From assembly GCA_030590985.1 (NCBI GenBank), contig JAUVBX010000004.1, positions 1-40,200 of the forward strand: a stretch of DNA of 40,200 nucleotides, written 5' to 3'. Positions within the stretch are counted from its first letter, which is position 1, and each line of letters starts with the position of its first letter. This DNA is from Lutibacter sp. (GTDB lineage Bacteria; Bacteroidota; Bacteroidia; Flavobacteriales; Flavobacteriaceae). This document shows positions 35,375 to 40,200 of the stretch, in pieces. A model generated the notes under the pieces. It did no database searches. It saw only the letters and a program-made list of their open reading frames with translations, and was not told the origin of the DNA. The position numbers were made by a program, and so were the translations under genes.

Positions 35375-38300
35375 CTACCAACCAGGTGTAAAGTTAAGTC
35401 CAAAAACTCCTTTGCTATTTCCTTCTAATTGAAGTGGAAATGCGTAATAGGGTTCTATAATTAATTGACCAAATAAATTGATTCGTGTAGAAATTCCTGT
35501 ACTTGTTATTATAGTTGACTGCTCTAGGGTTCTATCAACTTCATATCGTTCATTTTTACCCCAAGCTACACCAGCATCAAAAAACAAGTTTAAATCAGTA
35601 AACAAAAAACCTGATTTAATAGCAGCAAGTCTTTCAGGTCCAGTAAAAGGAAAACGAATTTCAAAACTAGCTAAAATCATTTTACTCCCTAGAATATCAT
35701 TAGGAGTAAGTGATTCTTCGTCTAAAAGATTACTTCTTTCAAAAGCCTTGTAATTATAGCCTCTAATTAAGGTTTCATATCCTAAGTATAAGGGTGGCAT
35801 GATAGCATCATTTGCATCATCTCCTAATCGTAAATAAGTATTTCCCTTGAAAGCAAAAGTAACAGGTTTTGCATAAAAATATTTTCTAGCATCGGCTAAT
35901 AACGAAGTCATATTTAAACGACCAAATGATTGTTGTACTTCAAAACGATATCGATATCCTTTCATGGGTGCTGTTAAACCAAAACTAGAATTATCACCTA
36001 CATAGGCAAGACTCACATCTTGTATGGCAAAAGGCTCTCCAACACCTTCCTCTATATTTCTTTCTCTATCTTCACCGTAATAATAATACCCATATTCATC
36101 ATAGTAATTATTGTATTTATCTAATCTAAAACTATAATAATTAAATGAGGCTCCTGCTTCTAATCGTGTTGCCTTTGAAAAAGGATAATAGGAAAAAACG
36201 GAAGCTTGTTCGTTAAATATTCGATAGACATTATATGTTTCTTTAAGACTGTTTACTGTTTGACCATTAATAGAAATACTATCGTATCCTATTTCATACG
36301 TTACATATCTATATGGAATATGAGACACACCACCACCCCATGCATAACGTGATTTTCGATTTAAATAAGCTGCTTGAGCTCCAAAATCTTGTAATTCTCC
36401 ATTAAGCATTGCACCAATATATAATTGATTTTCACCGAGCATATCACCAAATAGCATGTTAATACCTCCTGACATTCCCGTACCATATCTTCCTGTAGAA
36501 ATACCTACACCACCATTACTTATATAATCTAACTTAAATTTAGGTTCATAATCTTTTTCTTTGAGTTTGTCGGTTTCTGCTAAAATATTTTCATTTTTTA
36601 AATTTACATCTACAAAACCCTCTTTTAAATTCATCGATGGCAAAATTGCTGCTATTTCACTTTCATCATCAGCTGCAATTTCTTTAGCCTCCAAATCTGA
36701 TACTTTAATTTTATAAATATTATATTTAGAATCATTATAATGACTATATAAAATTTCGTTTTTATCAGTCGAAACACTTATTGCTGAAGAATACTTGGTG
36801 ATACCACTAACTCCTGTATAAAAATTAGTTAATTGTTTAATCTGTGCCGTTTTAATTTCATATTGATAAATATCTCGAAAACCTTCTCTGTCAGAAAGAA
36901 AATAGATAAATCTACCATCACCACTATACGTAGGATTTAAATTACTTGAGTTTGGAAAAACATTTGGAGTAAAAACTTCTTTTCTATCCAAGTTTAGAAT
37001 TGCAAAAGTTAAATTTTTATTTGGTCGTGTTTTCGCATAGTCTATATGATCAGTCACAAAGACAATACTTTTTCCATCAGGAGACCATTTAGGTTGCATA
37101 TTGGCATAATAATCATTCGTCAATTGTTTAACTTCTTTTGTGTTTATGTCAATAGTAAATAAATTACTATGTCCATTTTTCAATCCAGAAAATAATATTT
37201 TCTCACCATCAGGAGACCAGTTAATATTACTAAAAGAAGGAATAGTAGGAATGAAGAAATCGTCAATTACTCTTGCTTTATCCATATCAGCAATCGCTAA
37301 TTTATTTTTCCCTTCACTATAAATAACAAAGGCATATCTTTTACTATCAGGAGACCAAGTTCCTGCTGATTCAAAAGCATCTAATGCATCTAAATGACTT
37401 TTATGCGTACGTGTAGATAGTTTTTTAATTATTTTTCCACTTACAGCATCTGCAAGAAATAAATCAAGTGAAAAGATATTCTTTTCCGATAAAAATATAA
37501 AGTATTTACCATCAGGACTTACCGAAGGAGATATATTTAAACGTCCGCCATTTTTTTCATCAATCAACTTTTGACCAAGTCCTTTTATATTTCTATTTTT
37601 CATCAGAGGTTTGTAATGATTTTCAATAGCTGTTTTCCATTTTACTGAAAACGAATCTGTTGGCATCCCTAATTCTTTTTTAAAGGCCTCTTTCACACCA
37701 AATTTAGCCGTTTCTAAGTACAACGGATAGAGTTTATCATCACCAAAAGTTCCCCCTACAAAAGCCCAAAATGCTTGTCCATAACGATACGGGAAATACC
37801 GCGACTTATACAAATCTTTAATTCTAGGAAAATATTCATTCGCAACAGCATCACGCATCCACATAGCTGTATGCGCATCAACACTTCCAATGGATAAGTA
37901 TTCTGCCATCCCTTCTGTCATCCATAATGGAATATTTGCCATATTACTAAATGACAAAGAATCACTTGATTTAATCATATTGTATTGATGTGCATGAACC
38001 AACTCATGCCCCATTACATGATCTGTTTGCGTATAAGATGGTGTCACAGGGAAAGTAACCCTGTTCTTTAGTCCTTCTGTAACGCCACCTGTACTCGTCC
38101 CAATCAAACCACCTACAACAGAGGTTTGTTGAAAATCACCGTGATTACTGTATAATATTATTGGAACTTTATAATCGAAAGTATCTTTAAAAATCTGTTC
38201 GTGACGGACACGCCACTTTTCAGCATCTTTAACCAGGCCAATGATTAATGAATCTTCTTCTAAGTAATGATAGGTGTCAAAAGTTTTAGACTCAACCACT

Positions 38301-38437
38301 TTAAAATCAAATTTTTTGTACTTAACCTTATTTTGTCCAAAATACTGAGCTTGTACACTTTGAAAAAAGAGAATAGAAAAACCGATTAGTAAAAGATTAA
38401 ATTTACGATTCATAAGATGGGTTTTAAAGATAGGCAT
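35375..38437 (-). CDS. Predicted gluzincin metalloprotease / TolB-like beta-propeller / outer-membrane beta-barrel fusion
   Basis: 1020 aa; VMGHELVHAHQYN (HExxH) with downstream WMTEGMAEYLS; repeated WSPDGKxIxF propeller motifs; C-terminal barrel-like region ending GVFGLNFTPGW. Confidence 0.82.
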   Translation of the reverse strand: MPIFKTHLMNRKFNLLLIGFSILFFQSVQAQYFGQNKVKYKKFDFKVVESKTFDTYHYLEEDSLIIGLVKDAEKWRVRHEQIFKDTFDYKVPIILYSNHGDFQQTSVVGGLIGTSTGGVTEGLKNRVTFPVTPSYTQTDHVMGHELVHAHQYNMIKSSDSLSFSNMANIPLWMTEGMAEYLSIGSVDAHTAMWMRDAVANEYFPRIKDLYKSRYFPYRYGQAFWAFVGGTFGDDKLYPLYLETAKFGVKEAFKKELGMPTDSFSVKWKTAIENHYKPLMKNRNIKGLGQKLIDEKNGGRLNISPSVSPDGKYFIFLSEKNIFSLDLFLADAVSGKIIKKLSTRTHKSHLDALDAFESAGTWSPDSKRYAFVIYSEGKNKLAIADMDKARVIDDFFIPTIPSFSNINWSPDGEKILFSGLKNGHSNLFTIDINTKEVKQLTNDYYANMQPKWSPDGKSIVFVTDHIDYAKTRPNKNLTFAILNLDRKEVFTPNVFPNSSNLNPTYSGDGRFIYFLSDREGFRDIYQYEIKTAQIKQLTNFYTGVSGITKYSSAISVSTDKNEILYSHYNDSKYNIYKIKVSDLEAKEIAADDESEIAAILPSMNLKEGFVDVNLKNENILAETDKLKEKDYEPKFKLDYISNGGVGISTGRYGTGMSGGINMLFGDMLGENQLYIGAMLNGELQDFGAQAAYLNRKSRYAWGGGVSHIPYRYVTYEIGYDSISINGQTVNSLKETYNVYRIFNEQASVFSYYPFSKATRLEAGASFNYYSFRLDKYNNYYDEYGYYYYGEDRERNIEEGVGEPFAIQDVSLAYVGDNSSFGLTAPMKGYRYRFEVQQSFGRLNMTSLLADARKYFYAKPVTFAFKGNTYLRLGDDANDAIMPPLYLGYETLIRGYNYKAFERSNLLDEESLTPNDILGSKMILASFEIRFPFTGPERLAAIKSGFLFTDLNLFFDAGVAWGKNERYEVDRTLEQSTIITSTGISTRINLFGQLIIEPYYAFPLQLEGNSKGVFGLNFTPGW

Positions 38438-38629: not shown

Positions 38630-38637
38630 TAACTTTG
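38630..38637 (+). promoter_or_regulatory. Candidate -7 promoter element for the small RNA/leader upstream of xrtF
   Basis: TAACTTTG matches TAnnTTTG; predicted start falls at about the GCATCC 5' stem strand. Confidence 0.55.
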
Positions 38638-38639
38638 CC

Positions 38640-38748
38640 GCATCCTTTTTAAGAAGGATAATTTGTGTCGAAAAGGCACTTGTTAATAAGTGTCTAGGTT
38701 TCAAACCAATGAAAAGCTTCTCGCCTTTGGGCGGATGCTTTTTTTTTA
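38640..38748 (+). ncRNA. Putative structured small RNA or terminator-ended leader (family not identified)
   Basis: Promoter-like TAACTTTG immediately upstream; GCATCC (38640-38645)/GGATGC (38733-38738) closing pair; internal hairpin AGGCACTT..AAGTGTCT; 3' CGCC-tttg-GGCG stem followed by a run of T. Confidence 0.6.
38716..38748 (+). terminator. Intrinsic terminator ending the putative small RNA/leader
   Basis: GCTTCtCGCCtttgGGCGGATGC imperfect hairpin (one bulge, one mismatch) followed by nine T. Confidence 0.75.
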
Positions 38749-38794
38749 TTTTAGGTATTTTAATTACTTTTACCTATTATAAGATTTATATACT

Positions 38795-39352
38795 TTGAAA
38801 AAAAACAAAGCAGTAATCATATTTTTACTTCGTTTCTTTGTGAGCTATTTTATACTCTCAGGATTGTATCAATTTTATCTGAGCAAAAGCCAACAAACAG
38901 AAACTCACTACAGCTGCAGTCCTATAACTGAAATGGTTACGAAAAATACTGTTTATATTGGTGATATTTTAGGTTTTGATTTTAAAAGTGAGCAAAACAC
39001 ACAAGAGCTTTCATTTAAACTATATATAAACGGTAATTTTGTAGCTCGTATTGTAGAAGGTTGCAACTCAATAAGCATTATTGTATTGTTTTGGGCCTTT
39101 ATCATAGCTTTTGCGGGAAGTTGGAGAAATACAATATCATTTGGTTTAATTGGTAGTTTATTAATATATATTTTAAATATTTTACGTATTATTTTTATCA
39201 GTATCGCATTAGATAAATATCCTCAACATTCTAACTTTTTGCATCAAATTTTATTCCCTGCAATTATCTATGGTTTTACTTTTATACTTTGGGTAATTTG
39301 GGTTAAATATTTTGCAATTAAAAACTCAACTGAGTATAAAATAAATGTATAA
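38795..39352 (+). CDS. xrtF: Exosortase family protein XrtF (TTG start)
   Basis: 185 aa multi-TM protein; VEGCNSISIIVLF (Cys), YILNILRIIFI (Arg) and FLHQILFPAIIYG (His) exosortase motifs; overlapped by an associated membrane gene. Confidence 0.9.
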   Translation: MKKNKAVIIFLLRFFVSYFILSGLYQFYLSKSQQTETHYSCSPITEMVTKNTVYIGDILGFDFKSEQNTQELSFKLYINGNFVARIVEGCNSISIIVLFWAFIIAFAGSWRNTISFGLIGSLLIYILNILRIIFISIALDKYPQHSNFLHQILFPAIIYGFTFILWVIWVKYFAIKNSTEYKINV

Positions 39353-39782: not shown

Positions 39783-39908
39783 TCCTTACCAGAAAATATC
39801 TATTTCTTAGAGTCACTAAGTAGTTTGCGTTCAAACAATTTGATTTTTCTTGTATTTTTTTAACATACTATTTATTTAATGATATGTAATTTATGTTACA
39901 TTTGCCGT

Positions 39909-40200
39909 GTGAAACACACTCTTATATATAAGTTTTCTGCAACTTTACTAGCTCTCCTAGTTTTGTTTTCAAGCTTGTCATTTAGTGTTCAAAAACATTA
40001 TTGTGAAGGTGAGATAAATTCATCTTTTTTTTATAGTGCAGTAGAATTATGTGATGAAGAATCAGCTGAATGTCATAGTAAAGAAGTTGAATCAATGTGT
40101 TGTACTTCTAATTTAAAAGAATCAAATTGTTGTACAAATACGTCAGAATTTATTGAAGGAATATCCATTGAACAACAAGCACAAACAAAGCAGAGTATTA
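39909..40200 (+). CDS. Cys-rich HYC-type secreted protein (partial, right edge; GTG start)
   Basis: VKHTLIYKFSATLLALLVLFSSLSFSVQKHYCEGEINSSFFYSAVELCDEESAECHSKEVESMCCTSNLKESNCCTNTSEF...; signal peptide followed by HYC and CC motifs; frame open to the edge. Confidence 0.72.
   Translation, partial: MKHTLIYKFSATLLALLVLFSSLSFSVQKHYCEGEINSSFFYSAVELCDEESAECHSKEVESMCCTSNLKESNCCTNTSEFIEGISIEQQAQTKQSI

Follow-up and report, generated by a model that had tools for sequence, protein, structure and literature searches.

The window, a 40,200-nt stretch of a Lutibacter contig, contains a gene for a folded RNA of about 108 nt (38640..38747, + strand; its start was placed by the promoter and its end by the T-run). 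This is probably a free-standing small RNA of the Flavobacteriaceae that acts in trans, and two conserved motifs, GUGUYG and CCAAUG, are exposed in it. Genome comparison established the structure of this RNA, its spread, two transcription arrangements, relocation of the gene and its carriage by integrative elements. The original prediction had offered two readings of a compact transcript at this site, a riboswitch or attenuator of the downstream gene xrtF and, alternatively, a free-standing small RNA. The second is strongly supported by the structure, the spread, the RNA's own promoter and terminator, and the variety of its neighbours.

At this locus transcription of the RNA would start at its own promoter and stop at its own terminator. 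All its parts lie on the + strand. The -7 promoter element TAACTTTG (38630..38637) fits the Bacteroidota consensus TAnnTTTG, and GCATCC (38640-38645) is present at the predicted RNA start, followed by an optional 5' hairpin, P1 (ATCCTTTttaaGAAGGAT, 38642..38659), whose sequence is not conserved. The conserved part of the RNA begins at GUGUCG (38665) with the single-stranded motif GUGUCGAAA (38665..38673), for which the family form is GUGUUGU; columns 2-6 of this motif are each at least 90% identical across 105 sequences. Next come P2, an 8-bp hairpin of free sequence and complete covariation (AGGCACTTgttaatAAGTGTCT, 38674..38695), and P3, a small hairpin of conserved sequence and slight covariation (GGUUUcaAACC, 38697..38707). 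The second exposed motif, CCAAUG (38706..38711), occupies the P3/P4 junction, its CC closing P3; in the same 105 sequences its U and G are 100% conserved, its C residues 99-100%, and the A before UG is A93/G6. P4 is an intrinsic terminator (AAAAGC...GCUUUU plus nine T, 38712..38747) with a covarying inner stem. Hairpins of largely free sequence would thereby keep GUGUYG, close to the 5' end, apart from CCAAUG, which precedes the terminator. The -7 element, GCATCC, the 8-bp internal hairpin and the nine-T terminator named in the original prediction are all present in the sequence. The predicted 5' ATCCTT/AAGGAT hairpin is also real, but it is optional and variable in sequence, occurring in six of the nine xrtF-linked copies.

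The folded, covarying structure far exceeds what chance would give. The region folds at -37.1 kcal/mol, compared with -25.4 ± 3.5 for shuffled sequences (z = -3.4), and none of 200 shuffles folded as well. The expectation that a flavobacterial alignment would show conservation and covariation was borne out strongly in 105 homologues: all eight P2 pairs have changed on both sides with 96.6% pairing kept, and the whole structure is 94.7% paired. Cells changed on both sides number 453, against 124 ± 12 in shuffles, and the covariation score is 0.562, against 0.195 ± 0.007 for shuffles and at most 0.116 for slid controls. The alignment of the 105 sequences was fitted to the model, which biases it in favour of the structure; even so, the slid controls and the eight variable P2 pairs leave the structure hardly in doubt.

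The conserved AUG (38709-38711; ATG in 98, GTG in 6 and TTG in 1 of 105 sequences) was also considered as the start of a small ORF. Its initial five codons frequently read M-[KER]-S-F-P, but the frame is lost beyond them; the phase between AUG and the T-run varies (43/41/21), and in 92 of the 105 sequences no stop occurs before the RNA end. The ORF was therefore judged non-coding.

Each of the other six same-genus genomes yielded a homologue in a DNA search, and two further Flavobacteriia MAGs (L018 and L019) carry the RNA upstream of xrtF. A covariance model built from seven sequences (R1) matched 89 of 399 Flavobacteriaceae genomes; a second, built from 36 sequences (R2), matched 199 of 250, representing 189 of 237 genera, as well as all 100 high-quality genomes of one large genus, g146, which to judge by its size is probably Flavobacterium. 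Seven of twelve genomes scored as negative and with a located tRNA-Asp gene carry a diverged copy directly behind it, so the figure of 80% of genera is an underestimate. Model matches outside the family were rejected: the best two at the level of the order (L083 and L084) resemble ordinary terminators 3' of coding sequence, and so do the matches listed at the level of the class. A candidate second copy in the window's own genome (C10, 29.6 bits with R1) was not recovered with R2.

The surroundings of the 105 copies fall into two arrangements. In 57 copies a same-strand tRNA-Asp (GUC) gene precedes the RNA, and the 80 nt leading up to the core contain no TAnnTTTG; another 34 have TAnnTTTG at most 80 nt upstream of the core and no tRNA-Asp. 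No copy has both, and 14 have neither, several of these showing a truncated tRNA-Asp end. In most tRNA-linked copies the upstream protein gene belongs to a single cluster, of which a sampled member encodes a DUF58 protein. In many of the tRNA-linked copies, a terminator-like hairpin followed by a T-run separates the tRNA from the RNA, and a promoter element is absent (for example L049:1434-1500, L060, L102 and L110). Thirteen of the promoter-bearing copies neighbour a gene that we take, reading the sequence by eye, to be lysS. Downstream genes vary across the 105 copies. By sequence alone, the RNA has its own transcription unit, by promoter or by processing from a neighbour, with its own terminator.

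The ancestral gene would most likely have stood directly behind tRNA-Asp and been co-transcribed with it. Wherever a tRNA-Asp gene could be read in the window's genus, a simple terminator comes after it and the RNA copy is absent; likewise, in G158 tRNA-Asp lacks a copy and the RNA adjoins lysS. The gene has therefore moved with its structure kept. It has been retained independently of its neighbours in no fewer than three genomic settings (DUF58/tRNA-Asp, lysS/DUF456 and peptidase/xrtF). In the window's lineage it appears to have moved beside a peptidase gene and xrtF and to have gained a promoter. There the upstream neighbour is a divergent gene for a peptidase-MA/beta-propeller protein (35375..38437, - strand), shared with L026, which lacks xrtF; the downstream neighbour is xrtF, of exosortase family F (38795..39352, + strand; TIGR04128, E 1.9e-57). 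A short cysteine-rich, secreted-looking protein is encoded after the xrtF pair (39879-40199, + strand) and is cut by the end of the window.

Six genomes carry two copies of the RNA as direct repeats 2-30 kb apart. In five of the six, the repeat starts in the 3' end of tRNA-Asp and spans the whole RNA, the second copy being accompanied by a tRNA fragment only; all six repeats hold a complete RNA and stop 5-10 nt past its matched end. In the most diverged pair (G294), the stem upstream of the matched core has changed from GTCCCAG/CTGGGAT to GTCCCGAC/GTCGGGAT with pairing kept. Tyrosine-integrase genes adjoin the intact tRNA-Asp in four of the six elements, and restriction-modification or nuclease genes lie inside the elements. 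The element loci are L161-L169, in genomes G269, G372, G420, G349, G091 and G294, and several carry restriction-modification genes. Integrative elements inserting into a tRNA gene usually restore that gene, and those at tRNA-Asp restore the RNA as well as the tRNA. In each of the six the terminator is where the repeated block stops, which is evidence of selection for the RNA, although some of the six elements may be related. Among the matches listed for a combined tRNA-Asp and RNA query of phage and plasmid records, most covered the tRNA half. Three IMG/VR viral contigs (L189, L190 and L191) contain the RNA, two of them at a contig end and one of these two beside a tRNA-Asp that is truncated, the pattern expected of prophage borders.

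Because the RNA is built like a free-standing small RNA and exposes two motifs, we infer that it acts in trans. Most likely the exposed motifs or the terminator arm would pair with mRNAs, the commonest mode of such small RNAs. In a duplex scan of 848 genes of its own genome, start codons showed no clear enrichment for any segment; AAUUUGUGUCGAAA, which did best, scored 34 there against 13.8 ± 7.8 for shuffles, but 50 inside genes. The deep conservation of the exposed motifs suits protein binding as well as it suits mRNA pairing, and protein binding is the main rival explanation. Like 6S and SRP RNA, which work by binding a protein or ribonucleoprotein, the RNA would then be a housekeeping RNA that binds a putative protein or ribonucleoprotein and not mRNAs, its linkage to tRNA-Asp providing a steady, growth-linked supply. 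Its near-universal and usually single-copy occurrence in the family, the near invariance of its exposed motifs, the tRNA linkage and the scan result all agree with this reading, but class- and order-level searches did not find the RNA outside Flavobacteriaceae, and in the window's clade GUGUUGU has changed to GUGUCGA. We consider it a minority possibility. Equally tentative is a broader form of the idea, in which the RNA would represent a Flavobacteriaceae-specific housekeeping class with some general function, ranking with 6S RNA and tmRNA, supplied through tRNA-Asp and so important that the elements bring a full replacement copy.

The location of the RNA inside att-like repeats of six integrative elements might also be explained if it were a mere spacer and terminator of tRNA-Asp, used as an attachment site and free of function. 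This is very improbable: termination needs neither a covarying hairpin nor conserved exposed motifs, an integrase core would require just the tRNA end, and the RNA persists far from tRNA-Asp with its own promoter.

Least probable of all is regulation of xrtF in cis by a leader attenuator or riboswitch, as first proposed from a mutually exclusive pairing with the terminator: although the RNA lies about 47 nt 5' of xrtF in the window and 10-129 nt from it in other genomes of the genus, and a 6-nt alternative pairing exists in the window, that pairing is not conserved and xrtF lies 3' of only 9 of the 105 copies, every one in the window's clade. The GCATCC/GGATGC pairing is present as described, but it reaches 6 nt in the window alone, 5 nt in one relative and at most 4 nt in the rest, and P1 is missing from three of the nine xrtF-linked copies. 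No copy examined outside the clade has xrtF beside it, tRNA-Asp precedes most copies in the family, and in L026, from the same sister genus as L025, the peptidase neighbour is kept while the downstream gene is a different, convergent one. Moreover, six of the genus's seven genomes have TACnTTTA 12-18 nt beyond the RNA match (in the window, the promoter-like TACTTTTA, 38765..38772, + strand, 3' of the terminator), and its position between terminator and xrtF suggests that xrtF has its own promoter.

The linkage to tRNA-Asp, the relocation seen in certain lineages and the replacement by mobile elements together indicate strong selection to keep the RNA. With a short covariance model it can be annotated, and it can be searched for in existing flavobacterial transcriptomes, which would make its function directly testable.

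A near-universal folded RNA of one of the largest environmental bacterial families seems to be absent from Rfam. The window RNA reached the gathering score of no family in Rfam 15, and relaxed thresholds added only sub-threshold matches; 6S-Flavo and Flavo-1, against which a check had been proposed, gave no match at either setting, and the scanned homologues matched only tRNA. Flavo-1 and 6S-Flavo are likewise flavobacterial RNA families, and neither is matched by the window RNA or its homologues. The PyrR binding site (RF00515) aligns weakly along its full length with 38640-38748, at 29.1 bits against a gathering threshold of 54 (E 0.045), so the window RNA is not a member. In the literature searched, no description of a tRNA-Asp-linked small RNA was found.

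The closest parallels are other small RNAs of Bacteroidota. Rfp18 and the other Rfp RNAs are conserved small RNAs with several stem-loops from the same family (PMC9723704). In Flavobacterium psychrophilum, deletion of Rfp18 lowers the mRNAs of two metalloproteases, its predicted targets, with which it is predicted to pair through its third stem-loop (PMC9723704); in the window RNA the third stem-loop, with P1 uncounted, is the terminator. The main-text description of the Rfp RNAs gives no link to tRNA-Asp (PMC9723704). Given its near-universal presence in g146, the window RNA may be one of the 89 Rfp RNAs of F. psychrophilum, possibly Rfp18 itself, the Rfp RNAs being compared by description only. 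Pairing with mRNAs has been shown for FopS of Bacteroides (PMC11697453). Compared by description, FopS differs from the window RNA in belonging to Bacteroidaceae, in its 12-15 copies per genome, in its length of about 65-70 nt and in its 5'-end seed (PMC11697453). FopS and GibS are, like the window RNA, short small RNAs of Bacteroidota, most with their own promoter, and they pair with mRNAs (PMC11697453).
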